Below are positions 26,771 to 56,517 of a DNA stretch of 64,000 nucleotides, piece by piece. The translations under genes and the position numbers were made by a program. Below the pieces are notes generated by a model, which did not search any database, was not told the DNA's origin, and worked only from the letters and a program-made list of their open reading frames with translations. Source of the DNA: Coffea arabica (Eukaryota; Streptophyta; Magnoliopsida; Gentianales; Rubiaceae). Every line of letters begins with the position of its first letter. Position 1 is the stretch's first letter. Location: assembly GCF_036785885.1 (NCBI RefSeq), contig NC_092320.1, positions 14,633,557 to 14,697,556 on the forward strand. The letters run 5' to 3'.

Positions 26771-26849
26771 GCTTAGTTTGATCCCTACTTTATTTGCGTT
26801 GTGAATTGAATAAATACCAAATTAGGGTTCCTTTTCCTTCAAAATTTCA
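26771..26849 (+). promoter_or_regulatory. Conserved proximal 5-prime block of chitinase gene 1
   Basis: The stretch from CTTAGTTTGATCCCTACT to the ATG is kept in all three chitinase genes. It includes GAATTGAATAAATACC about 35 bases before the start codon and a TCCTTCAAAATTTC sequence just upstream of ATG. It is probably core promoter plus short leader; the transcription start is not known. Confidence 0.5.
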
Positions 26850-29215
26850 ATGGCTTCCATAACTAAGTTCATCTTACTATCTTTAACTCTGTGTGTTCTC
26901 CATCTTAACTTCTGTCATGGACAAAATGCTGTCAAAGCAGGCTACTGGTTTCCGGATAGTGGAATTGCACTCTCAGACATTGATTCCAAACTTTTCACTC
27001 ATCTGTTTTGTGCATTTGCTGATCTTGATCCCCAATCCAATAAAGTCACCATATCCTCCTCAAACGCTGGCCCCTTTTCACAATTCACCAAAACAGTTCA
27101 ACTCAAAAACCCTTCAGTTAAAACCCTTCTATCCATTGGTGGTGGAAATTCTAATAGAGCTGATTTTGCTTCAATGGCCAGTCAATCATCTTCCCGCAAG
27201 TCATTCATTGATTCTTCAATAAACTTGGCTCGAGCCAACAATTTCCACGGTCTAGACTTGGACTGGGAATACCCACAATCCGCTTCTGAGATGAAAAACT
27301 TGGGCTCACTCCTGGATGAATGGCGAGCCGCGGTGGCAACTGAGGCCAAGAACTCAGGCAAGCCACAGCTGATTTTGACAGCTGCAGTTTCGTTTGCATC
27401 AAAGGTGGATGGATTATATCAGTATCCTATTCCATCAGTATCTAGAAGCCTGGATTGGATAAATCTTATGGCTTATGATTTTTACGCTCCAGATCGTCCA
27501 AGTACTTCTACCAGGTGTCACGCTGCATTAAAGGACCCTTCTGGCCAAGCTAGTGGAAGTTCTGGCATTGCAGATTGGGAAAAAGCTGGAGTCGGGGCAA
27601 AGAAGTTGGTTCTTGGAATCCCATTTTACGGATATGCTTGGCGATTGGTAAACGCGAATAATCATGGGATCCTGGCTCCGGCAAATGGAGCTGCCGGTCC
27701 GGATAATGGAGTCGAGCGGTACCAAGATATAAGGACCTTTGTAGCTCAAACCCCGGGGGCGGTTGTGGTGTATAATTCCACATATGTCTGCAATTACTGC
27801 TATGCTGGAACAACATGGATCGGTTATGATGATAATCAAACAGTTTCCACCAAGGTTTCATATGCTAAACAAAATGGACTTCTTGGGTACTTTGCTTGGC
27901 ATATTGGAGCTGATGACAACTTGGCACTATCACGACAAGGTTAGTTAATGGAGTGATTCCAAGATAAGCAATTCCCTGTCTGATTACATTTATCATTTAT
28001 GGAGAAAATGACCTCATACGCCCTGAAAAATTGAGTCTCTAAGGGTCCGTTTGTTTCAGGTGAAAATGTTTTCCAGGAAAATATTTTCCTAATTTCCCGT
28101 GTTTGGTTGCACAAAAGTTATTGAAAACATTTTCCTCTGTAAAATATTTTCACTCATCTTATGGAAAACAACTTCCCTTCCAAACTTACTGAAGTTATTT
28201 TCCGAAATGCATGCATCCCGCCTGTAATATATTCCAAACTTACTGAAAACATCTTGTAGTATGTTCTTTTTTTTTTGTTAGTGTAAACAGGAGGATTCGA
28301 ACCCAAGATCTCTTCCTTACATTCCCTCCCCCGTATCACCCAACCCAACCCTCCTCCTAGTATATTCAAAAAAAAAAAAAAAAAATCTCATCCTGCTCAT
28401 CCTATGCTAGTAATTAATTATGTATAATAGAGACATTCTTTTCTAGAGAAACTTTCAGTAGTGAGAGTGCAAGATATATGTCACAATAAGCATTGCATGT
28501 GATTGATATTTGATACTAAATGACCAGCAATTTGTTTATTACTTAAGGAGATATTTTTTTATTCATGTATACATTTCTCCAAGATTTTTTCAAAATTAAA
28601 CAATGAAATAAATTTTCTTATTTTGCATGGGAAGAAGTATGTAGTTATAATGTGTAGAAAGTAAAGATAGATATAAAAGTGAAAATATTTCAAAAGTTAA
28701 ACAAACACCAGAAAAATGAAGTAAGAAAATATTTTCAATAAGTTAACCAAACACCTGAAAATGATGAAAGGGAAATGATTTTCATGGAAAATTACTTCCA
28801 CGGAAAATATTTTCCCAAGGAAAACATTTTACTTCCAACCAAACAGACTCTAAGTGTACCTAATAACTGGCTATGGAACATTGTCCATCGAGCTAATATT
28901 TTCCTGTGCCTAGAATTGAATGTATGTTTTTTGGAATTTTTTCATTTACAACATTTAAGAAGTACCCTTTTTAGCAAATGGTATTTGCAGTCCTTACATA
29001 ATATTTCTCTGGTATTATACCTTTTTTCTTGTAACAAAATGCTAAAAGTGGAGTCTAAAAAACTATTTTTGAAGTGCAAATATCTCTTACCTTTTTTTTT
29101 TAACTTGTTCATTTGTATATACATCAACAATATCTCAAAGTTTCTACAATTCTCATATTTGTTACTAACACTTATTTTTTACTTGAATGTAGCTAGCCAA
29201 GCATGGGGAGCATGA
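26850..29215 (+). CDS. GH18 class V chitinase, gene 1 of tandem array
   Basis: Two exons, 26850-27939 and 29193-29215, with a GT-AG intron, giving 370 residues. It is predicted to hydrolyse chitin outside the cell. A signal peptide spans about 1-24 (ends CHGQ). The GH18 barrel follows with SIGGG at 95-99, the active-site segment HGLDLDWE (D136, D138, E140, where Glu140 is the proton donor), LMAYDFY near 206-212 and the GYFAWH strand. Exon 2 adds only ASQAWGA before the stop, matching the usual C-terminus of plant class V enzymes and confirming the splice sites. The 1253-bp intron is swollen by an 808-bp Tourist element. The frame ends early if the intron is retained. Over 90 percent similar to genes 2 and 3. 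A role in defence or stress is inferred from the family. Confidence 0.95.
28043..28850. mobile_element. Tourist-type (PIF/Harbinger) element in the gene 1 intron
   Basis: Termini GGGTCCGTTTGTTTC and the complement of GAGTCTGTTTGGTTG extend into longer subterminal inverted repeats (AAAATGTTTTCC, GAAAATATTTTCC). The 3-bp duplication TAA is at 28040-28042 and 28851-28853. Genes 2 and 3 show the unfilled site at the same intron position (TCTCTAACTG). 808 bp including a nested SINE-like piece; no transposase frame. Confidence 0.9.
28267..28357 (-). mobile_element. Short SINE-like insertion nested in the Tourist element
   Basis: Flanked by TAGTATGTTC (28257-28266) and TAGTATATTC (28358-28367), a 10-bp duplication with one mismatch. 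The minus strand carries a perfect B-box-type GGTTCGAATCC and ends in an A run, as in 5-prime-truncated or very short SINEs. No A box is clear. Confidence 0.6.
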
Positions 29216-29316
29216 AGTGGTGGTGGAAGTCATTTGACGTTCCTTATAATAAGCCAAAAGAGAACTGGCATTGTTGAATAATAATATCATTGATATGTGT
29301 ACTCCATCAAAGTATA

Positions 29317-29322
29317 AATAAA
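29317..29322 (+). terminator. Candidate poly(A) signal, chitinase gene 1
   Basis: AATAAA 102 bases after the stop. The equivalent AATAAA is kept downstream of genes 2 and 3. Confidence 0.5.
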
Positions 29323-30148
29323 TGCCTTAGAGTTTGAAAAATGATTTTCGTCCTGTGGAGACAAATTGCAAACTGGCATCTGGCTAAATCAAGGATTAGG
29401 CCTTAAGCCTTTCTGACTAAGTAAGGCGAAGAAAGCAAATAGAAATCGAAACAATTAAAAGAATGTGTTGCCGTGTCAAGATCATCTTATATTGACTTGA
29501 TATGCTTGTCAAAATATATGACACCGTCATAGGAGAATTGATATCCAGTATGAAGAAGTCCAGGCTTTTCAATTAATTGACTGGTCATTAGAGTAAATTG
29601 AGAATTAAGACATTCGCTAATGGATATAGATTGACAAAAGTTGTTAGTTGTTAACCATACTTTGCCCGACTGAAGTAAGGGGTTCATCACACTTTGCCCA
29701 TAAAGAACAAATTGAATATGTAGCAACGGACATTAACTTTTTAACATCCTAAAAGCATGTGAATTTTTTGTTTTTTTTTTCTTCCAGTTTTGCGTCAAAA
29801 TGATTCCTAACCAAAGGCTAGGCTACTTCAGTAGCCGTTCCCTAACACTTGCAGAAGATGGTCAAAGCGGCAAAAATTCTCAAAATTTAGCAAAACAATC
29901 GCAGTCTTACTTTTGCATTTTCTATTTTTTGAAGGAAAAGATACTGAGCCAAAGCAGTAAAAGAAGGAATTTTGCTGGTCATCTAGCATTGGCACTTCTA
30001 TTCTTGAAAGGCCAAGAGCATCTGTGAGGGAAGCCAGATATTATTTTGACTTCAATAGCTATAGCACCTCTAAAATTACTTGCATGGATCTTCTAGCCGC
30101 ATCAATCTGTTTAAATTTTCGTTTTCTTTTGTTTGTGCCTTGTAGTTC
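29323..30148. repeat. 3-prime flank of gene 1, duplicated downstream of gene 2
   Basis: Noncoding sequence matching about 37785-38358 and 39413-39660. The shared order includes the AGATGGTCAAAGC segment and the CATTGGCACTTCTATTCTTGAA segment. It marks the tandem duplication unit of the chitinase array. No gene. Confidence 0.7.
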
Positions 30149-33100
30149 CACTACAGGAAAATAGGCTTTTTGTGACGTTTTCGCTGCGGCACAAGAAGAA
30201 AATGCAGCAAATAAAGAGCACATTTCAAATTGTGTGGCAAGGTTGATAAAGGGGCATAATTTTTGTGGCAAAACGACGTAGTTTTAATAAATCCAGAGTA
30301 AAGAAAAGGGAAAACGCCTTTCACTTCCAATGTCTCCTTCATTCTCCGCTAATTTCAAAACCCCCCACTTCTTTCTTCTAAACTCTAAATTCTGATTCCA
30401 AATTCCCAATGACCTTGTCTCGCTTTCTGTCTCTCTCTCTCAAATGGTCAAATCTAATTCCACCTCCTCCATTTTCCACCCAATACAGCCAACGAATATG
30501 CGGCAACCACCTTCATCTTTGAGATACAGAGGAAATCTGGAAGAGTAGACAGATTGATTGCTAATTGGTTTTGACGCCTGAAGCTAGGGTTTTAACGCGA
30601 GGAAGATGGACCTCCTCCATTTTTATTCTCAGCAGTTGAAGTCGATTCCCAATTGCAGCGTTTCTTCCTTGTTGTTGTATCTCTCTTTGTTGCTCTTCTT
30701 CTTTGTCTCTTTCCAATTCTAAAGACTCGATCACATTCTCAAAGGAATATGGTGAGATTTATAGCTAACGATAGTTTTATCTCAATTTTGTGTTTGTTCT
30801 TAGGTTTAATGACTTCTGGCATGATTTTGAGAAATTAAACAGTTTCAGGTCACTTTGCCAAAAGTGAATAAATTGGTTTTCACTGGCTGGATTTGCTTCT
30901 CCATGTAATTTTTATCATCGGTTAACTAATTTTAGCTTTGAGAGAACTTACCCAACAATTTTGCTAGCTATTCTGGTTCAAAAGCAAGGTAATTAAGCTC
31001 AATTCCTTTGCGATTTTTTTCACTTTATTCATTTATTTTATGGTATAATCAAGAGAATTTATTACATGCCCTTAGTGCTCAGGAGTTTATAGACTTTTGT
31101 GGTTATTTTTATGTATTTTTTGTAATTCTTTAAAATATTTTTAATGCGACCTAAGGGGAGATAATAGGAGTTTACTCTCGTTTTAAAGAGTCCAGCCCAT
31201 ATTGCAGATGGACAATGGAATCGCCTGAGAAACTCAATACAGTCGTTGTCTTGAAACAACGAGATAGCAGCCGTTGGCAGAAGGTACATTTGAAGCTTTA
31301 GTGCACTCCATCCTCTAGTTTATATATTTGTCCGATTATCATGCTACTGATATTAGGTGTTATTTGTAATTCTGTCATAAATGCCTGTAAACAACTCTCC
31401 CTGTTCTTGGAGACTGGGGACACACAAATAGTTTAGGAGAAATCCCAACTTTGGAGCATAATCATTTCAAGAAAGTGGAAAATGACAATCAAGTATTGCT
31501 GTTTTAGACCAAGTAATTCCTGATTTAATCCTTAAAAATGGTTACAAGGCATACAAACTACTTAAAAATGCACTTGCTTATGGTAGCAAGAATTTTTGCG
31601 TCACACTATGATATGGTATGATAATATTGTAACACAAAATTGTTAAGCATGATTGCCTCTACGGGTATAATATTAGGCCCACCTTCTCTCATTATTAACT
31701 TGGTGTTACTACTTGTAGCAACTTTGGTTAATTCTTTTACGAGTTCCAGTTTCTTATATGTGTGTGTGTTATTCTGCCCAGATTAATACATGCAATGGCT
31801 TCTAGTTGGCTATATCCCAAATAAGCTTATAAACCCAGGATGCAGACTGAAGACTGGACTGGCTGGTAAATTATTGCTTATTTTTTCATAGATGGGTTGA
31901 CAAAATTTTTGAAGTTTTATAACAGGAAATTCACTGTCTTATGTCTTCATTTGCATGCTACTTCCCAAATAAGCTTATAAACTCAAAATTTTTGAAGTTT
32001 TTATGCAAAATGGTCTGTTTTCTTACGAGAAAGTTTGGGGATCTATTTAGTAGAAGACAAGTGCTAAACTTCTCCTTCAATTATGTCCCTTTAACCTTGT
32101 GATCTATATCAATTCATGCGCTCAATATACCTATAAGGGTACCACTACTAATGGTAGGAAGGTTGTGCTCAATAAGCTTGGGTTGTCCAGATGCAAGGTA
32201 ATTAAGCTTATATGATCTGCAATTCATTTTTATTTATATGCACCTTTTATCATATTTATGGAGAATGATTAAAAGTTGTTCAATGTTGGCAGTTGATAGG
32301 TTCTAAATGTGGAATTTTATGGTGTTTTTGCCTTCTGTTGTTTTGGAATTTAAAGTGATTAAGGTGAAATAATGGGGATCTAGCATCAAATTTTGAATAG
32401 CATTCAACTTTAATTCCAAAGTTTCTGATTTCGGCTAATTTTCTAATTCCCAGCAATAGTGTACTTCATATCATTAGCTTTTGACGATGCATTTATTATC
32501 GCATGGATTTTGGCTTCATTTTTTTGCTATTTATACTTTATTTTGAATGAAATTTTTCAGAAAAAAAGATTTTTTTGATTTAAATAATGGCTACTCTGCC
32601 ATTCATTGTCATAGACCCATTGTCATGCCTACTCTGCCATTCATGGTCACAGAGTTACTTCCCAAAGCAGCTCAAATTCCGTTAGTCCATTGGTCATGCT
32701 CCCATATCCTGAACCCCTAATGCCAATGTGTGTTGGTTACCCCATCTCCAACGATGCAGTTATTACTAGTTAGACCCATATTATTGCTTGTTGATATTAA
32801 TTTCATGTCATTCGCCATTATTGATGCCCATGATACCACCACCAAGCTGATTTGACATCATCGTTTCATGTATGATTTTTTGAACAGAACTCTGGGAATC
32901 ATTTGCATCTGTGTCACTAGAAAGTGCTGGCTGCTGCATTGCAATGTTCGGTGAACTAGCAGAATTCGTGTGCATTCCGGTCGGTAAGCCACCAAGTGAA
33001 GTCTGTGGAGGATCGTTAGATGATGATGCCGTTGGAGACTGGAAAGGAGAAGGATTGAGTTGCGGTTGTAGTAAGGTACTCAAGGAACACTAGGAGATGG

Positions 33101-33804
33101 CATCTGAACACCATTTCCTCCGTAAGGACCATTTGCGCTACTCTTCGGGTTTTTGCTATCTCGAGTTCATTGAGTTTTGATGACGCAGCCCAGTTATATA
33201 TGGCACTAGTAGAGGAAGTTGCAGGAGCCGAATTCAGTGGATTATTTACGTTTGCCATGCCATTTCTGGAAGGAAGTTGCAATTATTACAAAAAATGTTT
33301 CAATGTGGCCTAACCATATTGAAACGTGATGACTTTTGCAAAATTATTTGAAATTAGGAACTACTTGTGCCTTTTAGAATTAGGTTATGATGATGAATTT
33401 GGAAATTTGCAGTGATTGTTTCCATTTAGATAGTGAATTGAATTACTTACTTGAAAGGGAAATGTACTACAAGCATGAAAAATAATTCATAAAATATGCA
33501 AAAAGTGTAAATCACTGCAGTGCATCTGTTTATTGAAGGAGACTATTTAATATTTGTGACGCAATTTTTGTGCTGCATGATTATTTGCGGCACAAAGCAT
33601 ATTTTGTGGCACTAATATGTGTCACTAATTGAGCCGCAAATGCTTGCGACACATTTAAACGAAGTGTCGTTTTCTTTTGTAACGGCTACTTTTGAGGCAC
33701 AAAGGACTTGTGCCGCAAAAGCGCCGCAAATACTTTTTTGCGGCGCTTTTTGGGCTTTTTGTGGCACATTCTGGGCGTCGCAACAAGCTATTTTTCTTGT
33801 AGTG
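30149..33804. mobile_element. CACTA (En/Spm) element, non-autonomous, 3.66 kb
   Basis: Ends CACTACAGGAAAATAGGC and, on the other strand, CACTACAAGAAAAATAGC, both the hallmark CACTA terminus. Subterminal GCGGCAC/GTGCCGC and TTTGCGGCGC repeats crowd both ends. The paralogous flank at about 39660 reads straight through, showing the empty site. Duplication of 2 bp (TC), or a degenerate 3 bp. No transposase frame. It carries a SEUSS-like gene fragment near its right end, and a UTR-like stretch near 30380-30730 that may be a second captured piece. Confidence 0.88.
32590..33283 (-). pseudogene. SEUSS-like transcriptional co-regulator fragment captured in CACTA
   Basis: Minus-strand coding-like sequence in two open pieces (33282-33016 and 33083-32808) and a decayed continuation to about 32590. 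It resembles the C-terminal third of SEUSS (SEU), a Ldb1/Chip-like adaptor that works with LEUNIG in floral patterning. Recognisable segments are NGMANVNNPLNSAPATSS, NPSPFQSPT followed by SSSNDPPQTS, DSQSSVQKIIHE followed by MSNQL, and further down NSVTMNGRVGM. The Ldb-binding core is absent. Stops and a frameshift near 33060 show it is not translated as a SEU domain. It lies wholly within the transposon ends. Confidence 0.8.
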
Positions 33805-36046
33805 TCCTGTAGGATATTTATGTCCATGTATCACCACAACAGGGGTAGTTAAATTCTTGCATTACAAATTTTTTTAATTACATTGCATTTTTTTTATTGG
33901 ATTACATGTTTTTTATTTCGTTGTTGGTGTTGGAAAAGCTAGTAATTGACTGGTTTTAAAGGAGAGGCAAAGTGTATATTCCTTTTATTCAGGTCGCCTA
34001 GGTGCAATTAGTCCCTAGTTCAAGAGGGCAAAGTGTAGCCCATTTATCGTACGGTAGACTCTATTGATATTGGCATCTAGTAGAAACTAAATAGTTTCCA
34101 GTGCTTACTTGTAAAAGGGTATATTTTTCATCCTTTTGACAAGAGGTACTTTTAGAAACCTACCCAAGATTTATATTAATATCACTTGGCACCTCTAAAA
34201 TTTTTAAAAATCCCTAGCCTCCCCTATAACCATCCATTTTGTAACAATCTCACCCTTGTATTATTAAAATACTCTTACAATAATCATTTAATGAGAATAT
34301 CTTTCTACCAATTCTACCCTTTTTTGCTGTTTTATATTGAATTTTCTATCAATTTGATTATAATATACAAGGTTTACATATTTTGCCTAAAAATTTTATT
34401 TTTCATAGTGTTTTGCATAAAAATTGCTAAAGTAGCGAAGATAATTTTGTCAATTCATATAGTACACAATAGTTATTAATGGTCCCATCTCATGACTAGT
34501 GCAGGACTTGAGTGATATTTTTGAAACTTCAAAGGTGTCAAATGATATTACCATAGGTTTCAGGAGAGGTTTCTGAATTATATATCGCTAACCAAAAGGG
34601 TTAAAGGCATACACTTATACGAGTCCAAGAGGCAAAAGTATATACCTAATAATTGGAGGGTTAAAAGTCAATCAACTATATAATTCGAGTGCCATTCAAA
34701 TATTTTGCCCAAAAAAAATAGCCGGACCAATGTATGTATGATACTCTCCTAAACATAGTATTGTGGAAACAGCAAAAACATAAGAAATTTACCTTCCATG
34801 AATGATAAATATGCTGGAGCTAAACTTGCCCCGCTGCCAAGATTCATTCAACTCCGTAGTTGTTCGGGCAACTTACCTCTCTTTAATATTTTATGGTCCA
34901 AATTGGGCGGTCCCAAGATTGAAAATAAAATCTGTGATCTAATCGAAAGCGGCTGCAATATTAAACAAATTTCGGCGAGTAGCTATGAAGGACTAAAACT
35001 TATCAGTATTTCTTTTTCTTTTTTTTTTAAATTATCCAAAAGTTGTCATTAGTTGAATAGGCAAATATCTGATGCTCTTGAAGATTGAGACTTACGTGGT
35101 AGCATGTTGTTGACAGTCGTAAAGATTTAATAGTTTCAAGGAAATGTAAAGTTCCACAAATTTTTTGCATTTACCGCTATAGTGGGACAACAAAATGGAC
35201 TTTACAAATTGGGCACTTTGCCAACAAAATTAGTTTGTAGTGCGACACGATTTTCAATTTCCTTTAAAATTAAATTTTGGCATTATATAATCACAGATGC
35301 CCTCCCTCAAGACTTGATCCTCAAATCCTATCTGACAATTGTCCATGAAATGTTGTCCCTTGGATCAAACTTTTCCTTTGGTAGAATTAATTGTGGTATA
35401 CCTATTGAGATATTCGTGCACTCTGTCAATTTTTTTTCATATCTTTAACTTGTAAAATATAGTACCTTTTTTTCTTCTTGACTTGTTCATTTGTATAGAC
35501 GTCCACGGCATCTCTTACTTTCTCATATATTTCGTCTCATTCGTAATGGTTAATAAGACCAAACCTAATGTTGGTAGAAGTTTCTCCACTACTCATGTGA
35601 GAGGTGACACTGTTTGAGTGATGATTTGTGTATTCCACAATTGATACGCATATGCAAGTTTTCCGGTGCCATCACAATCAAAAGACAAATAAATTCCTTA
35701 GCACGCAAGTTCCACAAAGGTACAGTTTGAAAGTTGATTTTTTCAATCTGAAGACAAATTGCAAGCTGACAGGTGACTAAGTACCCAAGCCTAACTCGAG
35801 GATTAGGCCCTAAAGCTATCTCACTTTAGAAGAGGATCACAATTTTCTCTTGGATTCTCCACTAATGCCTCCAAATTAGATAAGGCCAAGTTTAAAAAAA
35901 TGAATTTCCTTGTCAAGGTCATTTTCGGTTGTCCTTGTATGCTTGTAAAACAGTGTCATAGCTTCACCGAATAGTTAATTTCCAGGATGAAAAGTCCAGG
36001 ACTTTTCATTTAATTGATTGATCTAAACAGATTAAATAACACCTCA
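33805..36046. repeat. Upstream flank of chitinase gene 2 (tandem unit), with one MITE
   Basis: Noncoding. From about 34720 it matches the flank upstream of gene 3 (about 40195-41750), and parts recur near 44055-44720. Short open frames at 34798-35052 and 35182-35448 belong to this repeated flank and show no protein features. It includes the MITE at 34154-34574, absent from the unit 3 flank. Confidence 0.65.
34154..34574. mobile_element. MITE-like element, about 420 bp
   Basis: Left AGAAACCTACCC and further TAATATCACTTGGCACCTCT pair with the complement of the right end (AGAAACCTCTCC, TAATATCATTTGACACCTTT). It is missing from the corresponding site at about 40140-40195, which supports insertion. 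Target duplication and superfamily not resolved. Confidence 0.65.
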
Positions 36047-36124
36047 TCTTAGTTTGATCCCTACTCTATTTGCAATCTGAATTGAATGCATACCAAACAA
36101 GGTGTCCTTTCCTTCAAAATTTCA
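36047..36124 (+). promoter_or_regulatory. Conserved proximal 5-prime block of chitinase gene 2
   Basis: Same block as upstream of genes 1 and 3. Here the AATAAATACC seen in genes 1 and 3 has become AATGCATACC, which creates an extra in-frame ATG at 36086 and removes the TAAATA element. Confidence 0.5.
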
Positions 36125-37743
36125 ATGGCTTCCACAACTAAATTCATCTTACTATCTTTAACCCTCTGTGTTCTCCATCTTAACTTCTGTCATGGACAAA
36201 ATGCTGTCAACGCAGGCTACTGGTTTCCAGATAGTGGAATTGAAATCTCAGACATTGATTCCACTCTTTTCACTCATCTGTTTTGTGCATTTGCTGATCT
36301 TGATCCCGAATCCAATGAAGTCACCATATCCGCCTCAAATGCTGGCCCCTTTTCACAATTCACCGAAACAGTTCAACTCAAAAACCCTTCAGTTAAAACC
36401 CTTCTATCCATTGGTGGTGGAAATTCTAATAGAGATGATTTTGCTTCAATGGCTAGTCAGCCAACTTCTCGCAAATCATTCATTGATTCTTCAATAAACT
36501 TGGCCAGAGCCAACAGTTTCCACGGTCTAGACTTGGACTGGGAATCCCCACAATCCGATCTTGAGATGACGAACTTAGGGTCACTCCTGGATGAATGGCG
36601 AGCCGCAGTGGCAACTGAGGCCCAGAACTCAGGCAAGCCACAGCTGATTTTAACAGCTGCAGTTTCATATGCATCAAAGGTGGATGGGTTATATCAATAT
36701 CCTATTACATCAGTATCCAGAAGCCTGGATTGGATAAATCTTATGGCTTATGATTTTTACGCTCCAGATCGTCCAAGTACATCTACCAGGTGTCATGCTG
36801 CATTAAAGGACCCTACAGGTCAAGCTAGTGGAAGTTCTGGCATTGCAGACTGGGAAAATGCTGGAGTCGGGGCAAAGAAGTTGGTTCTGGGCATCCCATT
36901 TTACGGATATGCTTGGCGATTGGCAAACGCAAATAACCATGGGATCCTGGCTCCGGCAAACGGAGCTGCTGGTCCGGATAATGGAGCCGAGCAGTACCGA
37001 GCTATAAGGACCTTTGTAGCTCAAACCCCGGGGGCAGTTGTGGTGTATAATTCCACATATGTCTGCAATTACTGCTATGCTGGAACAACATGGATCGGTT
37101 ATGATGATACTCAAACAGTTTCCACCAAGGTTTCATATGCTAAACAAAATGGACTTCTTGGGTACTTTGCTTGGCATATTGGAGCTGATGACAACTTTGC
37201 ACTATCACGACAAGGTCAGTTATTGACGTGATTCCAAGATAAGCAATTCCCTGTCTGATTAGATTTATCATTTATGGAGAAAATGACCTCATACGCCCTG
37301 AAAAATTGAGTCTCTAACTGCACCTAATAATTGGCTATGGAACATTGTCCGTCGAGCTAATATTTTACTGTGCCTAGAATTGAATGTATGTTTTTTGAAA
37401 TTTTTTCATTTACAACATTTAAGAACTACCCTTTTTAGCAAATGATATTTGCAGTCCATACATAATAATTCTCCGGTATTATACTTATTTTCATGTAATA
37501 AAATGTTAAATTGGAGTGTCAAAAACTATTTTTAGAGCAGAATTACCTTTTTTTCTAACTTGTTCACTTGTACATACATCCACAATATCTAAAAAATTCT
37601 ACAATTCTCATCTTTGCAAGTTGTAACTAACGCCTACTTTTTACTTGAATGTAGCTAGCCAAGCATGGGCAGATGGAAGTGGTGCTGGAAGCCATTTGAC
37701 GTTGCTCCTAGCAAGCCAAAAGAGAGCTGGCATTGTTGAATAA
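36125..37743 (+). CDS. GH18 class V chitinase, gene 2 of tandem array
   Basis: Exons 36125-37214 and 37655-37743, giving 392 residues. The start at 36125 matches the other copies and gives a clean signal peptide; an upstream in-frame ATG at 36086 is peculiar to this copy. The catalytic D136, D138 and E140 are kept (GLDLDWE), but the next residue, Tyr in genes 1 and 3, is Ser here (DWESPQSD). Other changes add acidity (DPESNEVT, FTETV). Exon 2 has lost the stop that ends genes 1 and 3 and reads on for about 20 extra residues (AWADGSGAGSHLTLLLASQ and on). The function is as for gene 1, but activity is less certain because the position after the catalytic Glu lines the cleft in GH18 enzymes. Confidence 0.92.
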
Positions 37744-37778
37744 TGATATCATTGCTATGTGCACTCTATCAAAAGATG

Positions 37779-37784
37779 AATAAA
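37779..37784 (+). terminator. Candidate poly(A) signal, chitinase gene 2
   Basis: AATAAA at the position equivalent to that after genes 1 and 3, 36 bases after the extended stop. Confidence 0.45.
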
Positions 37785-39412: not shown

Positions 39413-39420
39413 ATCAAAAC

Positions 39421-41827: not shown

Positions 41828-43524
41828 ATGGCTTCGACAATCAAATTCATCTTACTATCTTTAACTCTCTGTGTTCTCCATCTTAACTTCTGTCATGGAC
41901 AGAATGCTGTCAAAGCAGGCTACTGGTTTCCAGATAGTGGAATTGAAATCTCAGACATTGATTCCACTCTTTTCACTCATCTATTTTGCGCATTTGCTGA
42001 TCTTGATTCCCAATCCAATAAAGTCACCATATCCTCCTCAAACGCTGGCCCCTTTTCACAATTCACCAAAACAGTTCAACTCAAAAACCCTTCAGTTAAA
42101 ACCCTTCTATCTATTGGTGGTGGAAGTTCTAATAGGACTGCTTTTGCTTCAATGGCTAGTCAACCAACTTCTCGCAAATCATTCATTAATTCCTCAATAA
42201 AATTGGCCCGAGCCAACAGTTTCCACGGTCTAGACCTGGACTGGGAATACCCACAATCCGCTTCTGAGATGAAAAACTTGGGCTCACTCCTGGATGAATG
42301 GCGAGCCGCGGTGGCAACTGAGGCCAAGAACTCAGGCAAGCCACAGCTGATTTTGACAGCTGCAGTTTCGTTTGCATCAAAGGTGGATGGATTGTATCAG
42401 TATCCTATTCCATCAGTATCCAGAAGCCTGGATTGGATAAATCTTATGGCTTATGATTTTTACGCTCCAGATCGTCCAAGTACTTCTACCAGGTGTCACG
42501 CTGCATTAAAGGACCCTTCTGGCCAAGCTAGTGGAAGTTCTGGCATTGCAGATTGGGAAAATGCTGGAGTCGGGGCAAAGAAGTTGGTTCTCGGAATCCC
42601 ATTTTACGGATATGCTTGGCGATTGGTAAAAGCGAATAATCATGGGATCCTGGCTCCGGCAAATGGAGCTGCTGGTCCGGATAATGGAGTCAAGCGGTAC
42701 CAAGATATAAGGACCTTTGTAGCTCAAACCCCGGGGGCGGTTGTGGTGTATAATTCCACATATGTCTGCAATTACTGCTATGCTGGAACAACATGGATCG
42801 GTTATGATGATAATCAAACAATTTCCACCAAGGTTTCATATGCTAAACAAAATGGACTTCTTGGGTACTTTGCTTGGCATATTGGAGCTGATAACAACTT
42901 TGCACTATCACGACAAGGTCAGTTATTGACGTCATTCCAAGATAAGCAATTCCCTGTCTGATCAGATTTATCATTTATGGAGAAAATGACACCATACGCC
43001 TTCAAAAATGGAGCCTCTAACTGTATCTAATAATTGGCTATGGAACATTGTCCATCCAGCTAATACTTTTCAGAAAATGTTGTTTGCACTCTAATTTTTG
43101 TTAATCACACTTTCACTGTTATTTCAATCATATAGTTTTCATTTATTAGACTATATCATAAAACAAATAGTAGAAGTGCAAATAACAAAAAAAGGAGTAC
43201 AAATAAAATTTCTTTTTTTTTTCTATGGCTAGAATTGGATGTATGTTTTTTTGGAATTTGTCATTTACAATGCTTAAAACTATGCCTTTTAGCAAATGAT
43301 ATTTGGAGTCCATACATATGGTGTACGTATACCTCTTTTTATGTAATAAAATGTTAAAGTCGAGCATCAGAAACCAATTTTTTAAATGCAAATATCACTT
43401 ATCATTTTTTTTAACTTGTTAATTTGTATATACATACACAATATCTCAATGTTTCTACAATTCTCATATTTGTTAGTAATTTACTTCTTACTTGAATGTA
43501 GCTAAACAAGCATGGGGAGCATGA
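41828..43524 (+). CDS. GH18 class V chitinase, gene 3 of tandem array
   Basis: Exons 41828-42917 and 43502-43524, giving 370 residues. Signal peptide about 1-24; SIGGG, GLDLDWEYP (D136, D138, E140) and LMAYDFY are all intact, so a working secreted chitinase is predicted. Exon 2 ends AKQAWGA like gene 1. The copy is a mosaic. The first ~50 codons and codons ~115-135 follow gene 2 (GIEISDIDSTL, QPTSRKSF). Codons ~60-85 and everything after ~135, through exon 2 and beyond, follow gene 1. If the intron is retained the frame ends a dozen codons later. A small inverted-repeat insertion lies in the intron (43081-43206). Confidence 0.95.
43081..43206. mobile_element. Small MITE-like insertion in the gene 3 intron
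   Basis: About 125 bases with ends GTTTGCACTCTAATTTTTGTTA and the complement of ATTTGTACTCCTTTTTTTGTTA, absent from the introns of genes 1 and 2. AAAAT on both sides could be the duplication. Weak case. Confidence 0.4.
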
Positions 43525-45049: not shown

Positions 45050-45051
45050 TA

Positions 45052-45380: not shown

Positions 45381-45382
45381 TA

Positions 45383-46467: not shown

Positions 46468-46789
46468 TACTCTCTCCCTTTTTTTTATAACTAACGTTTA
46501 AGAAATTTGCTCTAATGTACTTTTATCTGTCGTTTTATTATCCCCATACAGTATTAATTATTTTTTTCACAATTTTTCCCTTTTATCTCTCTTTTCCAAT
46601 ACAGGGTTCTTAATTACTACTCCTAGTAATTATTGTTTTTCTCTTTGTAACAACCCTAGTAATTATCTGCCCCTCCGCATTCTTTCTTCTTTTCTCGCAG
46701 TATGTTGAACCCCCTTTGTTCTTCTCCATCACGCCTCCCTCCACATCAACCACTTGCAATTCAACCATCTTTGGGGGTTGAAAAGTTGA

Positions 46790-47080
46790 ATGGACCAAGA
46801 ATTTGAAGATGAGTTAATTAAACAAGTGGTTGAAGATTCTTGTGAAGAAACAGGAGAGGATGAAGATGCACAAGTTGAAGTCGAATGTGCCAAAATACAT
46901 AAAGCTCCATTATGTATTGATTTGAATGAACCTGCAAAGTTTGATTTTGACTTGAACAAAATCCCTGATGAAATTGGAGAAGAAGTATGTATTTCTCTTG
47001 AGACTAGTTTATATAGTGAAGTCCTTATAGTCTCTCAAAATATTTGGTGGGAGTTAAAAATGTTTAAAATTTCAGATTAA
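46790..47080 (+). pseudogene. Acidic DLNEP-motif protein fragment within the mariner-type element
   Basis: 96-residue frame starting MDQEFEDELIKQVVED, very acidic, with IDLNEPAKFDFDLNKIP. Repeated (F)DLNxxP motifs at the N-terminus are what I recall from plant mariner-like transposases and some other nuclear proteins. Given the host element, a remnant of the transposase N-terminus is the best guess. A good splice donor (GAA|GTATGT) at 46985 suggests a real first exon of 65 codons. The helix-turn-helix and DDD parts are absent. The MULE insertion lies just downstream. Confidence 0.4.
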
Positions 47081-47272
47081 AAATTTAGGTGAAAATTTTT
47101 GGGGCTAATTACTCAGAATATCGTTGTAAAAAAGAAAAGTCGGACGTTTATGACTCTGACAAGGGGTGCTGCAAATTTATGGCTACCGGGCTGGCAACCA
47201 AAAAGGCAAATTTTTGTTTTTAAGCTCTGACACAGTCCGGCAGTGGAATTATTTATTTATTTTTTTTTAAAA

Positions 47273-47313
47273 GTCCCTGGCTGCTGGGCTGACAAGGCCC
47301 GGCAGCCAGGGAC
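47273..47313. repeat. 41-bp GC-rich hairpin in the left MULE repeat
   Basis: 17-bp stem beginning GTCCCTGGCTGC, one G-T pair, with a 7-base loop TGACAAG. The same structure is in the right repeat at 48778-48818. More CCGGGCTG/CAGCCCGG pieces lie on either side. Confidence 0.9.
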
Positions 47314-48478
47314 TTTATAAAAAAATCTGCACAAAACCTGCTAGATCGATTCTTAAGGGAAAAGGGGTTGAAAATATTCAATTACTACTTACTACTACTA
47401 GTATTTCATCCATTGATTTTATCTCACTAATATTTCAGCACCTTTCCATATAGTGAATTGCTCTACTAGCTGGTGAAGGCACCGGTTTTCCCTGGCCAAG
47501 TTTGCATTCTCATTTGCCAGTCTTGATTTTTCAGCACCACCATAAACTAATTATCAACTTTATTTCACCACCACCATAATTATCAACTAACTTGCATAAT
47601 AAAGTGAATTGCATTAAACTAATATCACTAGTTTCGAAATTAAGCTATGCTAATTACATTAATTTTATGTATTTAATCTATTAAATGCAACTAGTATTTC
47701 AAATATTTAAATTGCCCCGACTAAATGGCTATCTTAATCAAAACTCAATATATGCCTCGTCAAATACATCTAAATTCATTTAATCGAACCTCTTAAAATT
47801 AATTCGTTCAACTAATTAAATCACTAAACTAATTAAACTAATCATATACTAAATAACATAAACTAATTATCAACTAACTTGCGTAATAAAGTAAATTGCA
47901 TTAAACAAATAACACTAATTTCGTTAATTAAGTTGTGCTAATTACATCAATTTTATGTATTGAATTTATTAAATATGCCAATTTTAACGGATCAATTGCA
48001 ATTAGAATAACGGATCAATTGCAATTAAAAAAATTTAATTGCAAAGCAATAGGATTTCCCTTTTTTTTGGGTTATTGAAGTTGGGAAGATTTGGGATGAA
48101 CATAGTAATAGCGGATAAGCATGGTAATAACAGTTATGCAATGGTGGATGAGTATAGTAATAGCAGTTAAGTAAATATGAGAGTATGGAATATAAGATGA
48201 TTGTATATTATTTTATCATACAGAGGGTCAAATTAAAATAATGACATTTTTTTAACATCAAACCCATTATCCACACATTGTATATAGAAAGACGTGGTCA
48301 CGTTAAAAATGAAAAAAAAAATTGGTTGATTTCTCTCTCTTTTTTTTTTTTTTCCCTTTTCTTTTGGGGTGTGTACATAAGTTGATTCTTTTCTTTTTTT
48401 TTTTTTAACAATTTTTTTTTTAGTTTCTCCTTTTTGTACTTGAGGTGTGAAAATATCTAAATTATTTTAATTCTAAAG

Positions 48479-48622
48479 TTTCCAGATGGTACAAAGGAGT
48501 GGGAAGAAATTCATGCAAGTGATATCATCATATGTGCAACGAGAATAATTAAACCACAAGCTGTGGAATCTTTAATTGGGCATAGAAGTGAGTTAGTAAG
48601 AGGCAAAGAAGGAATTAATTAA
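48479..48622 (+). pseudogene. Short coding-like fragment inside the MULE
   Basis: After an AG acceptor-like site, a 47-codon frame reads FPDGTKEWEEIHASDI and ends SELVRGKEGIN-stop. Its composition looks coding and it sits just inside the right terminal repeat, so it may be a captured exon. Family not recognised. Confidence 0.3.
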
Positions 48623-48777
48623 AGAATGAAGAGATTCACTATATGGAAAGGTGCTGAAATATTAGAGAGATAAAATCAATGGATCAAATACTAGTAGTAG
48701 TAAGTAGTAATTGAATATTTTCAACCCCTTCCTTTAAGAATCGATCTAGCAGGTTTTGTGCAGATTTTTTTTATAAA

Positions 48778-48818
48778 GTCCCTGGCTGCCGGGCCTTGTC
48801 AGCCCAGCAGCCAGGGAC
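48778..48818. repeat. 41-bp GC-rich hairpin in the right MULE repeat
   Basis: Counterpart of 47273-47313; stem of 17 pairs, loop CTTGTCA. Confidence 0.9.
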
Positions 48819-49237
48819 TTTTTTTTAAAAAAAAAAAAAAAAAATTCTGCTGCCGGGCTGTGTCAGAGCTTAAAAAAAAAAATTGCCTTTTTTGTTGCCG
48901 GACTGACACAGCCCGGTAGCCATAGATTTGCAGCATCCCTTGTCAGAGCCATAAACGTCCGACTTTTCTTTTTTACAACGATATTCTGAGTAATTAGCCA
49001 ATTTTTGGTGGGAAAGTTTTTCATTTTAGAAACATTTAGTTTGGTGGGAGTTAGTTTGCATTGCTTTTGGCCTAGTAAAACAGCACCATTTAGTACTCTA
49101 GTGAGAGAAAATATAGGTGAATTGGACAGTTAATGAGGGTATAAAAGGAAAGTAATGTACAGATTTAAGCAATGAAAAACTTTTCTTAATTGGTGTGCAA
49201 AACCTTAAACGTCAGTTATAAAAAAAGGGAGGGAGTA

Positions 49238-49688
49238 TTATTTCTTCCTCTTTCATGACCAACCGTTTCCACCCGACAAACCAGAAAACCATTCATACTT
49301 AATGTTTTGTTTCTATATAGGCTGTAACATCATCTAATAATCAAAACACTTATTAGTCTCCATCAGCTCAGACCTATTCAAATGGCGTGGATAAACATTT
49401 ATGGTTTTATTCTTTGTTTGGAACCATGTTTTCTGTATTTTGACCAGAGGAGAAATAGATACAAACGCTGGTAAAATACTAAAATTTCAGAGAATTTTAT
49501 GATTTAGCAGAGGCCAGAAATCTAGCCTACTAATCCTCAGGTTTAGATGCTGGAAACCAGCCACTTTCTATTGTGAGATTTAACATATTGTCCTCATGGA
49601 AATTAAAGTTTGCTAAACAAAAATATCTTCAGTTGCCATGTTTGCTAAACAGCAAAACCTCTTGGAAATCTCTGAAGGCAATTCTTTT
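49238..49688 (+). other. Upstream region of the receptor kinase gene
   Basis: No sequence shared with the chitinase gene promoters. An in-frame ATG at 49638 would add 17 residues before the signal peptide; the later ATG at 49689 is preferred. No clear TATA assignment. Confidence 0.5.
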
Positions 49689-52600
49689 ATGGCATCAGTC
49701 AGTAGGATCATCCTGCTTTTACTGGTAATTCTGCCATCTAATCTGCCGTACTCAATAGCACAAAATTGGATAAAGGCAGGCTACTGGTATTCTGGCACGG
49801 AGTTTCCCATTGCAGACATAAATTCAGCTCTGTTCAGTCACCTTATTTGTGCTTTCGCCGACATTAACTCCAGCACCTATGAGCTTCACATCTCTCCATC
49901 TGATCAGAAGTACTTCTCAGCATTTACCAGTACTGTCAAACAGAAAAATCCATCAGTTATCACACTTCTATCTATTGGAGGAGGATCAGCTAATTATTCA
50001 GTCTACTCTTCTATGGTTAGCCAATTTTCATCTAGGAAGTCATTCATAGACTCATCGATAAATATAGCTAGGCTATATGGTTTCAAGGGCATAGACTTCA
50101 GCTGGCGTTCAGCAAGTACAGCTGCAGATGCAACTAACATGGGCACGCTTTTCAATGAATGGGGAGCTGCTGTGGAATCAGAATCAAGGAACAACAACAG
50201 CTCGAAGCTTTTCTTGACAATGGCTGCTCCTTATTCACAATATATTAGTGAAGCAACTCTCCCAATAGATTCAATAAGGAGGAACATGGATTGGGTGCAT
50301 GTTTTGGCATATGATTTCTACACACCTGTAGCAAATCCAGAACATACAGGTCCTTCTGCTGCATTATATGATCCAGCAAGCAACCAAAATACAGATTTTG
50401 GTATGAATTCATGGATAAGTGGAGGACTGCCAGCTAACAAGATTGTTCTGGCTTTGCCTTTCTATGGCTATGCATGGACGCTCAGGGATCCCAAAGACAA
50501 TGCAGTCGGTGCTCCAGCCAATGGATCAGCCGTGACAACAGAAGGGGACATGACTTACAAAGCTATCAGGGATTACATTCAACAATATAATGCTGTTTCA
50601 GTATACAATTCAACTTACGTTATGAAATACTGCAGTGTTGGGTCAACTTGGATTGGCTTTGATGACGTTGAGGTTGTCAAAACTAAAGTTTCATATGCAA
50701 AACAGAGGGGTCTGCGTGGGTATGCAGTTTGGCAAGTTCCAAACGATTACAATTGGGAACTTTCTCGGGCAGCAGGTAAAGAATGTACTTTCTGGAATTG
50801 GAACTTTTGTATGAACTGTATTAAAGACCTAGGTAAACTATGTGAAACTTCTATGTTTAACCTCGTTTTTCTTTCAACGACTTTTGAGAAAGAATTCGAT
50901 TAACTCCAGGTTGATTTCAAACTCGACAGATTTAAGAAATCATTTGTAAGCCACTAGAGAAAGAAAAAAAAAAAAAGCCTTGACCTGCAAAGTGCCCTAA
51001 CAACCAACTGATACTAGTACTCTTTACAATCTAACAAACCTAAAAGTTCCCAAAGCATAAAACAGAGTAAATATGCCCACTACTTCAATGCTAGTAAGTT
51101 GACTAGGTGCAGATCATCATAATCTAAAATATATTACTAAAGGGACATCCTAAGGTACTTCTATGTCCAGAGACATAGGCATCCCAGTACCTGCCCAATA
51201 TCTGTCCAAATTTGTCAACTTCATCCACAACTCGATTGACAGGCAGAAGAAAATGGAGGATTAGGGAAATGGAGTAATCATAACAGGTAACAAAATTCAG
51301 GCACCAATTTGATATGAAAGAAAGGGAAAAGTACAAAAGAAGTGGTAACAGATCAAAGTTTTGATAGGTAATTTACAAGATGAAAACCACCAGGAATAGT
51401 AGCCCTAGGAACTACTCATATAACCTTCAGCCCTTGAACAAAAGGCTGCATTACTTTTCACCTCATGGAAACTATAAATCAGCAGGAACTTTTGTAACTT
51501 GAACTCTGTTACTTTAAAAAGGAAATTCTACATTCCTCATTCCTGGGCCTTAAGGCCTACTAATCCACTTCAAACTTCAAACTCATGCTTTGTCTTAGCT
51601 CTACTGCTACAACAATCCAAACTAGCAAAATATTCACTAAGAACTCAAAGATGAGACTAGAAATTTGGAGGAATGTTTCAGGCTCTAAAATATTAGGCAA
51701 AATGTGTAGAACACTTACTCTTTATAACAGGAAACGGAAAATGACAAAAAAGGAATCATGACACTGAACTCCAACTAAATATGCGTAAAGACTTCAAAAT
51801 TATGCCATGGTAACTCCAAAATAGCCTACATGTCTCTTAGGTGTTCCAATTTATGCAAGAGCATAAAACTATCCTTGCCGTGCCTTTTGTGCATCTTAGT
51901 CTATGCCATTAACTATGAAGTGAAATCAATTTGTCAAGGAAATACTTCAGTTCTCCTTTTCCTCCTCTTCAATGACCAGACACCCATGAAAGGTGAACGA
52001 ACCCCACTAATATGAGGATGCATGCACCTATGCAACTTTACCACTATTTTCGTTTTGATGACAAGAGTCGTTTACAATGTATTGTGTCAATAGCATAAGA
52101 ACATTAGAAGAAGGTGAAAACATCCTTTCAAGAATCGTTTTATACCTTTACCACTTCCCCATGTAATCCTCTTACTTTTCTGAAAAAACTTTTTTGGTTG
52201 GTACTTAAATTTCTGGTCTTACAGCTGAACAAAGTAACAAAAATCAGCAAAGGAAGAAGCATATACTTTTGAAAACTCTGCTTCCTGTAGCAAGTCTGGT
52301 ACTCCTCTTACTAGGAGGCTTTACAGTTTGGCACATCAAAAGAAAACAGCTTACAGGAAAAGGTACTTTCTTCAACTTATGTGCTAGTAGATTTTGTCAA
52401 AAGGTATCATCTAACTTCTTCTGATTATTTCACGTTTACATTTATTGGTTGCATCTTTTGAAGAACTGAGGATAGAAACAGAGATGGGGCATAAGCAAGT
52501 ATTTTCAATGGAAGGCAGCGATTCTCATTCTCTACAAATGTTTAGCTTTGACGATATTAAGGCAGCAACAAATGATTTTTCAAATGAAAACAAGCTTGGT

Positions 52601-55600
52601 CAAGGAGGATATGGGCCTGTTTACAAGGTAATATTGTTTTATTTACCTTTAGATGTATACAAATTAGAGGAGAATAGCATCACAGTGAAGGCCACTACCA
52701 ACTAACATTTTCAATGTCTTCATTTTTTTACTAAATTTTACCTTTTGGATTTAGTTCATCGACTTAAATTGGACATTGTTACAATTCCTTTTCTGTCATC
52801 TTTTGTGCTTACAATGAATGTGTTACCTAACAAATGGGTAAAGCAAACTTATGAATCGCCAAGGTGGTTACCCTAGCAAAAAATATTGCAGTCGAGAAAA
52901 CTTAACAAGCATAATATTGTTAACTCTTGGATGACTTTCAGTTATGTTGTAGACATATGTATTTTTCTTTCTTTTGTTGACTAAAAGTAGTATACATGGA
53001 AGTAGATTGAAGTCTCACCTTGTTCCTGTCTCCGTAACAGCAAAAGCCTTGTGCATTAGAACCACTGTGAACATACAAGCTTATGCTTACAATTTGAACT
53101 AACCTGAAATGCTAAATTGACTTCAGTCAAACTATAATAGTTTCCGATGAATAGTCAAACTCATGCCAAGTAGGCCAACTTCATTTTTATTCACAAACTA
53201 CATAAAATAGAATAGCGCGATCATGGTCAGAAGTTCCAAACTATTGCAGAAATAAAATTTTGGACCATAATTATCCAGTACTGAGAGAGAGAGAGACCCA
53301 AAAGTTGACTCAGATTTTTGCCAAAAAATGTCTATATTGAAAACATATAAGCATGTTTGGCATAATGGCATGAACTTTTTGAGTGGGTTAGGCATTTACA
53401 CATGATATATACACAATGTACTAGCCAAGACTTGTTGAATGATGTCTATTTTTTAGGCTATATTATTAAACGGCAGAGAAGTAGCAGTAAAAAGGCTTTC
53501 TGCAACTTCCAAACAAGGAATTGAAGAATTCAAAAATGAAGTATTACTTACAGCCAGACTGCAACATGTCAATCTTGTAAGTGTTCTGGGATTTTGCATT
53601 GAAAGAGAAGAGAAGATGCTGGTATATGAGTACATGCCCAACAAGAGCTTGGATTTCTACATCTATGGTATGTCAGTGTACTTTTATGCATCATTAATTA
53701 CTCAATGAGTAAATGAACTAAGACATCTCTTTAAGCAAAGAAGCATAAGAAATTCTCACTGAACAAGACACTGCTGCAACTTTTTTAAAATCTAACATCT
53801 GAAAACTAAGAGTAAGCAAAGCCTAGGTTTAAAAGTAGGAAAAAGTATTAAGTTTAGTGAACAGGTGATTAGGGGGCCAACTATCGGCCAAGTGCGGGCT
53901 TGAACTGCAATTCAATTTTTTGAATGGTTAAGACTTCTTGCTACAGAGAAAGGTTGATTGCTTGTACATTTCCAGTCGAGAGTGTAAATCACTATGTGAG
54001 CATTTGCCTTTACTATGCCATGTTAGTTTGTACAATTTACAAGGCAATCATCTCTAACAAGTGCTAAGGCCCTTGGTCAAATGAACAGGACATTTATGCC
54101 TCCTCCCTTCATCTGTCCTTTTTCTCCTGGAATTTGGTAAGTTAGGTTCACAAGATTGATCCAACTCTCAGTTTCTCCGTGAAGAGTATGTTCTACTAAT
54201 GATTGTTTAATTGTTTGCAGAGCATCTCCTATGTCAGTAACTTATAATATACTTAATAAATTTACTGAGTTGTATAACACATCATATTATGGCACAATCC
54301 AGTAAAGACAAGAGAACATTGCACCCATATAAAATAGTCGGGCTGATCAATGCTCCTAAGGTTATTTGTGCTTGATTTCAAATTGGCTCCTTGAACATTG
54401 AATTTTGTAAATTTCGCACCTAAAGTTTAATAGTCCAAACACTAGTTCTCCTCATTCTGTTTAACTCAATGTGACGACTTGAAAACACAGAATCATAAGC
54501 CTCATTGGCTATATATGAACTAGGCTACTCCCACCAATATTGTCAATAAGGAAGAACAAATATTCCTCAATCTAGTTCAAGTGTGACCATCCAAATTCTC
54601 CTACCTGGTATATGTGTTAATAACAAAGGTTGCCTACTATAAATCTACATTTCTAAATCTGTAGTAAGAATCACATAGTATTACCCTGAAGAAGAAAAGG
54701 TGTGTCATCTAGTGCGGCCAATTTCTGCCCTGTTGCCTCCACTTGAACTGCTAATAGGGCAAGCCATTTACTGGAAATGGAACTAGGCCATGTATGCAAT
54801 GATGTTTTCCATTCTTTTAATTGCAAGTCAAGTAAAACCACTAACAAATAAAGGAGAAGGAAAGGCCATTTTTGGTGGAAAATTTGCTTCTGAACATACA
54901 CAGGATCAACTGAGATAGAATTAATATAGGCCTAAATGGTAAAAATACTCCAGGAAGATATGTGGATACAGATAAATTGGAGGAATATGGAGTTTACTTT
55001 TTGGCTTTCAAGTCTACTACATACTGGTTGCATGTTAAAATCGAATTGAGAAGGGATGTTCACATTTGGACTATATTAAAGCACAATCACAAAGTAAAAG
55101 GACAAAAAGACAAAGCTTGGAAGTTTAGTATCCGCATCAAGACAGACTGAAAAGTTAAGAGAGGCCGATGACACTTCCAATTCTTTTGTCTAGAAAAAAT
55201 TACCTTCAGATCTCAGTGCATCTACATTTTAAATAGGGTTTCACAATTATACATAGCTTGGCATATGCACAATTGAGAACTAATCGCCAAGTTTACAGAT
55301 TGGCAGACGAAAGTTCAAAGTAAATCCAGACCTGGAAAAGATTTAATTAAATGAAAGAATTAACGCAAGTAAACATGAATCCATGGAATCAGATACATAA
55401 AGCTTCTACCCAAATACTTTCTTTGGGTAGTACCAGTTCTAAAATTTTGTTTAATCAATCAACTAATTTAGCTCAAGGACTGTCTTCAGGTGCTTTGCAG
55501 AACCATGGAAGATCCATCTAAGTTTGGTTTTGATATTCTTTAGAGGATCACAGGTCCTGTTTTACTATTCTTGAATTGCGTACTATTGGATTAGTTTCTT

Positions 55601-56517
55601 GCATGCATAATTTTGTCCTTTTTTACTAATTTTTCTGTTATAGATCCAATCAACCGCTTGTCCCTCAACTGGGAACAACGGGCACAAATCATTGAGGGAG
55701 TGACTCAAGGGCTCTTGTATCTCCAAGAATACTCAAGACTAACAGTAATTCATAGGGACCTAAAAGCTAGCAATATTCTATTGGATGATCAAATGAAACC
55801 CAAAATATCAGATTTTGGAATTGCCAAAATATTCCAAAAGGACAAGGTTGAAGCAAACACCGATCGAGTAGTTGGTACCTAGTAAGTGAAATGATTCTAC
55901 AACTAACCTAAAGAATGCTCTCATGTGGTGCTAAGCTTATGATGTATGCTGCAGTGGTTATGTTCCACCTGAATATGTACGACAAGGGATATATTCCACA
56001 AAATCGGATGTTTTCAGCTTTGGAGTTCTACTTCTTCAAATAATCAGTGGAAGAAAAAATACATGCTTTTATGGACCTCATTCAAATATAAACCTCCTAG
56101 AATATGTAAGTTATTGCAGAAGCATTGGTAGAATCACTAGAACTTGCAAACAATTTGCTCAAAGTATAACTGGATTGCAGTTATTTGACTTTTTGAACTT
56201 TTATACAGGCATATGAGCTATGGAAAAATGGAGAAGGCAAAGAGTTTCTAGATGAAACACTGGATGACACACATTCATCCTGCAAACTAATGAGATGCCT
56301 TCAAATTGCTCTTCAGTGTGTTCAAAAAGATCCAAATGATAGACCTAACATGCTAGAAATTTCTCATATGCTTAGGAACGAGAATTTGGATATGAAGCAT
56401 CCAAAAAGACCAGCCTTCTCTATTAAAAAAGACGAAGGTGGAGATAAGTCCTCCACACAGTCAGAAGGAACAGGACAAGTTGATACTGCAACCATCACAA
56501 GACTAGTTGCTCGATGA
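49689..56517 (+). CDS. Chitinase-related receptor-like kinase (CHRK1-like), GH18 ectodomain inactive
   Basis: Seven exons: 49689-50775, 52225-52362, 52464-52627, 53457-53667, 55644-55881, 55955-56105 and 56209-56517. All sites are GT-AG, phases agree, and the product is 765 residues. Signal peptide about 1-24; GH18 domain to about 360, aligning residue for residue with the three chitinases. At the active site GIDFSWR replaces GLDLDWE, so D138 is Ser and the proton donor E140 is Arg: no hydrolysis is expected. Transmembrane segment about 380-398 in its own exon. Kinase: GQGGYG 454-459, K475, HRDLKASN with D572, DFG 590-592, DVFSFG, all intact and RD-type, closest in feel to the S-domain/DUF26 group. 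Tobacco CHRK1 has this architecture and lacks chitinase activity. Role inferred: plasma-membrane receptor for chitin-like or other glycan ligands. Confidence 0.95.

Follow-up and report, generated by a model that had tools for sequence, protein, structure and literature searches.

Receptor kinases with a glycoside hydrolase family 18 (GH18) ectodomain have been known since 2000. In tobacco, CHRK1 joins a chitinase-like ectodomain that lacks the catalytic Glu to a kinase, and the available text of a 2023 review reports no Arabidopsis receptor-like kinase (RLK) with a chitinase-like sequence and states that GH18 receptor kinases have been given less attention than other classes (PMC10573068). 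The available part of another review lists 91 plant GH18-kinase sequences and treats their ectodomain as predicted to be enzymatic (PMC5485988). As far as the accessible portions of these sources go, kinase-CRA combinations were noted in a five-genome survey (PMC5485960), receptor-like kinases of at least eight species include Glyco_hydro_18 among their extra domains (PMC7333395), and soybean has six CRA proteins, one of them with a transmembrane segment and a kinase, and no tandem CRA genes (PMC6272470). The same source describes, in its accessible portion, RobpsCRA, a plant GH18 protein with affinity for high-mannose N-glycans and virtually no chitinase activity (PMC6272470). Here we describe a locus of Coffea arabica within a window of 64,000 nucleotides (C11:14633557-14697556, contig NC_092320.1; exon and motif coordinates below are those of the window), in which a gene here called RLK1 combines a GH18 ectodomain with a dead active site, a membrane segment and a kinase, next to related chitinase genes. 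We put at about 75% the probability that RLK1 is a CHRK1-type receptor kinase, in which a pseudo-chitinase ectodomain of ChiC descent is mounted on an S-domain/CRK-type kinase, binds glycan without cutting it and signals through its RD kinase. The architecture is known, and its genomic setting is instructive.

The RLK1 gene (49689-56517, + strand) was modelled from genomic DNA, as was its neighbor RLK2, and in these models the signal peptide and the membrane segment were called by inspection. RLK1 has seven exons, with GT/AG at every junction, and encodes 765 amino acids laid out as signal peptide, GH18 domain, membrane segment and RD kinase. Exon 1 (49689..50775) holds the signal peptide and the entire GH18 ectodomain, and exon 2 (52225..52362) the juxtamembrane region and the hydrophobic stretch of the transmembrane segment. 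The kinase starts in exon 3 (52464..52627) with the glycine-rich loop GQGGYGPV and continues through exon 4 (53457..53667; VAVK lysine and alphaC region), exon 5 (55644..55881; HRDLKASN, the RD motif, and SDFG), exon 6 (55955..56105; PPEY) and exon 7 (56209..56517; end of the C-lobe and tail), all on the + strand. Pfam places the GH18 domain at residues 31-353 (215.6 bits, PF00704 cut-off 29.6 bits) and the kinase at 448-716, with a weak ABC1 match within the latter, and the kinase motifs are intact. A membrane segment and an intact RD kinase fused to the ectodomain had been claimed in the initial annotation of this DNA, and the seven-exon model bears this out. RLK1 has a class V GH18 ectodomain with a signal peptide, no catalytic Glu, and a transmembrane segment and a kinase in one gene, which are the features of the CHRK1 type. 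The likeness to CHRK1 (class V chitinase-like ectodomain, kinase, plasma membrane) is drawn from the architecture described in the available text of the review, not from sequence; that text also confirms the annotation's remark that this architecture is known from tobacco (PMC10573068).

Three class V GH18 chitinase genes lie upstream of RLK1, all on the + strand. Their first exons are at 26850..27939 (chiA, secreted, 242.9 bits), 36125..37214 (chiB, 254.2 bits) and 41828..42917 (chiC, 256.5 bits), and the motif reads DLDWEY in chiA and chiC and DLDWES in chiB. The three tandem enzymes with intact D136, D138 and E140 had been recognized by the annotation, which placed the receptor about 6 kb after them; we measured 6.8 kb between the 3' end of chiC exon 1 and the ATG of RLK1. 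It had also described the ectodomain as matching the enzymes position for position, with Ser for D138 and Arg for E140. The alignment agrees on each point: identity to chiA, chiB and chiC is 46-48%, there are two one-residue gaps only, and the segment at 50094..50108 (+ strand) reads D136-F-S138-W-R140 where the enzymes have D-L-D-W-E. RLK1 thus lacks the DxDxE motif of an active class V chitinase. In RLK2 the motif is D-L-F-G-A. The catalytic Glu is gone in both receptors (E140R in RLK1, E140A in RLK2), and D138 is replaced differently, by Ser and by Phe, respectively. We infer that catalysis has been lost in RLK1 and RLK2.

The whole genome (1.198 Gb in 131 contigs, of which C1 to C22 take most of the hits and behave as pairs) was searched with the PF00704 profile, and all 80 candidates were scored, yielding 76 hits. 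The best 20 of the 76 fall within two homeologous clusters of roughly 90 kb, C11:14660403-14749656 and C12:13555878-13651800, and the 21st lies elsewhere, at E 8e-22. Both clusters present, in this order, three ChiC-type chitinases, RLK1, RLK2 and five chitinases that belong to a second clade and of which the final two lie on the opposite strand; the C12 cluster has one additional 5' fragment. The feature is larger than the annotation stated, with eight chitinases and two dead-site receptors on two homeologs, and the linkage of a CHRK1-type dead-site receptor to paralogs with complete catalytic motifs is repeated, in the same order, on the homeologous chromosome. Fifteen blocks longer than 1.5 kb align between the two chromosomes: 12 have 93-98% identity, and the remaining three, at 89-92%, are paralogous matches. 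That the linkage is a coincidence or an artefact of assembly is hardly credible: nothing speaks for it beyond the general caution that one genome was searched, and against it stand the identity of the blocks, the gene order common to both homeologs and the concentration of the 20 best GH18 hits, the last two of which show that the linkage is not due to chance. Weak PF00704 hits outside the clusters include class V-like GH18 copies with in-frame stops at C15:3569273-3570197 and C16:3481641-3482619. The possibility of a third receptor was considered for a kinase fragment at C12:13614110 and rejected: its identity to CRK, S-domain and RLK queries is nearly the same (44-46%), no GH18 query matches nearby, and it resembles a cytoplasmic receptor-like kinase. 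Within the cluster, chiB has Ser at residue 141 (36545-36547), directly after the catalytic Glu, where chiA, chiC and the chiB homeolog have Tyr; in all, the 15 further chitinase genes read in the clusters (7 from C11 and 8 from C12) have Tyr or Phe. Because of this Ser, activity of chiB should not be assumed. No description of this cluster was met in the literature searched, which is weak evidence, as subscription journals lie mostly outside its coverage.

The second receptor differs between the two chromosomes. On C12, RLK2 is a complete model of seven exons and 754 amino acids with intact kinase motifs. On C11, its GH18 exon is interrupted just before the motif by an insertion of about 5.8 kb (C11:14707902 to about 14713706), and the kinase exons downstream of it remain open. 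The insertion is flanked by a 5-bp target duplication, has TG at its left edge and carries ends identical over 594 bp, which points to a young long terminal repeat (LTR) retrotransposon; C12 has the empty site. The C11 copy is therefore a natural insertion disruption beside an intact C12 homeolog. For RLK1, the ratio of nonsynonymous to synonymous substitution (dN/dS) between homeologs is 0.17 in the ectodomain and 0.27 in the kinase, both from few substitutions, and these values suggest purifying selection on RLK1.

The phylogenetic analysis of the GH18 domains used 23 rows, with enzymes from coffee, tobacco, Arabidopsis and Robinia, and was repeated without two long rows, RobpsCRA and the chain 3wij. 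The receptor ectodomains form one clade (support 100/100), which groups with the ChiC-type enzymes at 98/96; the ChiC-type enzymes of coffee, tobacco, Arabidopsis and Robinia form a group of their own at 94/91, or 98/94 without the two long rows. The receptor clade is consequently the sister group of the ChiC-type enzymes in the sample, those of rosids as well as asterids, and the five other cluster chitinases branch outside both. On this sample of few species, the split between receptor and enzyme most likely predates the divergence of rosids and asterids, in line with the GH18 kinases reported from tobacco and soybean. The annotation had suggested a conversion of enzyme to receptor with its relatives still adjacent; descent of the ectodomain from the adjacent enzymes, or closest kinship with them, is not supported. 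A clade of the receptors with the coffee trio was rejected by the approximately unbiased (AU) test (p 0.030; 0.017 without the two long rows), and the trio consists of recent tandem copies, with dS of 0.03-0.14 among its six copies over both chromosomes and with chiA 94% and chiB 92% identical to chiC. That the RLK1 ectodomain arose recently and straight from one adjacent chitinase is accordingly very improbable: adjacency and the common exon end would be explained by it, but the rejected clade and an identity to the trio of less than half, against more than 90% within the trio, would not. A direct conversion of enzyme to receptor from adjacent genes is not supported. Of the two signs by which the annotation would have recognized mere coincidence, the ectodomain is indeed distant from the trio, whereas the linkage, far from being absent, is shared by two homeologs.

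The exon structure points to where the fusion took place. The entire GH18 domain is a single exon in enzymes and receptors alike, and by eye a phase-1 donor (G^GT) follows LSR-x, or the equivalent residues, in RLK1, RLK2, chiA (LSRQ) and chiD-chiH; G^GT stands at the same place in chiB and chiC, and the phase-1 end of RLK1 exon 1 falls within one codon of the chitinase intron. The next exon is the membrane exon in the receptors and encodes a short tail in chiA (29193..29215, + strand; A-SQAWGA-stop, phase-1 acceptor by eye) and in chiC (43502..43524, + strand; A-KQAWGA-stop), while no tail exon of chiB was found across the window at up to three mismatches. In two CRK and two S-domain genes of the same genome, the ectodomain exon also ends at a phase-1 donor (by eye). 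The kinase intron phases 0,1,2,0 are common to RLK1, RLK2, two of three CRK loci and two of three S-domain loci; L027 and L029, among these six, were set aside because they could not be aligned usefully. The RLK1 kinase shares 51-52% identity with two S-domain kinases, as against 46-49% with two CRKs. A search with the full-length kinase (best 114 of 3738 candidates scored) is biased to kinases without introns, as matching proceeds one exon at a time, and the kinase lineage was searched with exon 7 alone. Among the best 150 of 551 candidates scored in that search, the seven best non-GH18 matches adjoin S-locus-domain hits within 5 kb (by eye). To judge from these matches, the kinase exons of RLK1 most likely came from an S-domain/CRK-type gene, on the S-domain branch. 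Considering the shared phase-1 boundary and the exon 7 matches, a phase-compatible swap of exon 1 into an S-domain-type gene would be the simplest origin. On each homeolog, a truncated copy of the RLK1 kinase also precedes the cluster by about 0.5 Mb (C12:13036530-13037406 and C11:14177025-14177330), with exon 7 94-97% identical; on C12 only exons 5-7 occur within the 19.5 kb examined, and the C11 copy is an exon 7 hit.

The fold of the RLK1 ectodomain is clear, because solved class V enzymes match it at E values down to 8e-104: tobacco class V chitinase (3ALG and 3ALF, E 8e-104 and 1e-103) and Arabidopsis ChiC (3AQU, E 3e-101), followed by RobpsCRA (4URI, E 1e-83). NtChiV (3ALF) and AtChiC (3AQU), its closest solved relatives, belong to the same fold family, but they keep DxDxE and have no kinase. 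RobpsCRA offers a precedent for the change from enzyme to lectin, although it differs from RLK1 and RLK2 in that it keeps the letters DLDWE and lies inside the enzyme clade. In 18 enzymes (16 from this genome, one each from tobacco and Arabidopsis) 68 columns are invariant; RobpsCRA was left out of this set, as was 3wij, a chain that carries Gln at the catalytic Glu. RLK1 keeps 53 of the 68 columns, RLK2 52 and RobpsCRA 64. Y32, D136 and W348 are retained in both receptors, and the AYDFY motif in RLK1; W348 is, we presume from GH18 structures, the floor of the sugar-binding site. Four substitutions are common to the two receptors (A178M, N204H, S234N and Y324F), which suggests that remodelling of the pocket predates their split. 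No relatives of the ectodomain were found in viral contigs.

According to the reading that we favour, a ChiC-type class V GH18 enzyme gene would have supplied the ectodomain exon, and exon shuffling at a matching phase-1 intron would have joined it to membrane and kinase exons. The catalytic residues would have been lost as D138S/E140R in RLK1 and D138F/E140A in RLK2. The ectodomain would bind a GlcNAc-containing glycan, either a chito-oligomer or an N-glycan, without cleavage, and the kinase, predicted to be an active RD kinase, would pass on the signal.

Several results weigh against this reading. Kinship with CHRK1 is presumed from the architecture, and the nine-row kinase tree does not separate CRK from S-domain parentage. 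Other placements of the receptors were not firmly rejected, namely an asterid-only origin (AU p 0.056), a grouping with the coffee, tobacco and Robinia enzymes (0.062) and one with AtChiC (0.064). The RLK2 kinase has a dN/dS of 0.60 between homeologs, in keeping with one broken copy. An AlphaFold model of the RLK1 ectodomain with four window proteins (pLDDT 43, pTM 0.48) was too poor and was not used. Finally, sugar binding itself may be gone, as RLK1 has changed L137, P142, A178, V180, N204 and M206 in its pocket, and RLK2 has an insert of eight residues in the SxGG loop as well as M206R.

These last changes are what might be expected of an ectodomain in which sugar binding has gone the way of catalysis and a protein or peptide is the present ligand. 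GH18-fold inhibitors and other pseudo-GH18 proteins bind protein or peptide. Changes affect 15 of the 68 invariant columns in RLK1 and 16 in RLK2, and several of them fall within the active-site motifs or close by, with L137 and P142 altered in RLK1 and the other four positions in both receptors; the SxGG loop is rebuilt in RLK2, and the Arg that replaces the catalytic Glu could occupy the -1 site. However, W348, Y32 and D136 are kept, together with AYDFY in RLK1, and we regard protein binding as possible but distinctly less probable than glycan binding. We put a glycan-binding ectodomain that does not cut, coupled to an active kinase, in first place; because of the remodelled pocket, protein binding is its chief competitor.

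The linkage itself could have a function, if the chitinases released fragments perceived by RLK1 and RLK2 and the cluster were kept for co-regulation. The eight chitinase and two receptor genes in the same order on both homeologs, with RLK2 broken on C11, agree with such a relay, and there is a precedent for coupling of enzyme and receptor: in pear, according to the available part of the source, a GH18 chitinase that is secreted binds to a LysM receptor kinase at its ectodomain and reduces the reactive oxygen species induced by chitin (PMC10611555). Nevertheless, tandem origin by itself accounts for the clustering, one RLK2 copy is already disrupted, and the linkage is not general, the soybean CRA family, including its one CRA kinase, being described in the accessible portion of its source as free of tandem duplication, in contrast to the tandem coffee cluster (PMC6272470). 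We consider this relay doubtful. Slightly more doubtful still is a functional module in which two pseudo-chitinase receptors, having shared a first loss before their pockets decayed along separate paths, keep watch over the eight linked chitinases, sensing either what these release or that they are inhibited. If this were true, one locus would both produce a chitin signal and perceive it, and plants reported to have no such receptor, such as Arabidopsis, would be lineages that lost the sensing half.

Two other features of the window flank these genes. At 13593-16804, on the minus strand, two overlapping open reading frames (ORFs) in different frames read, by inspection, as a leucine-rich repeat receptor-like protein that is frameshifted or split. 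Just after RLK1, at 59305-62990, a Ty1/copia-like polyprotein (inspection) extends over several adjacent ORFs and is apparently decayed.

For the family, the available part of the review cited above predicts an enzymatic ectodomain for CRA-type lectin receptor kinases, whereas RLK1 and RLK2 are without the catalytic Glu, and the receptors of this cluster speak against that view (PMC5485988). The locus assembles two receptors with different dead sites, their related enzymes, a shared intron at the probable site of fusion and the whole in two homeologous copies. With these at hand, the steps from hydrolase to sensor become testable through residue swaps in soluble ectodomains.

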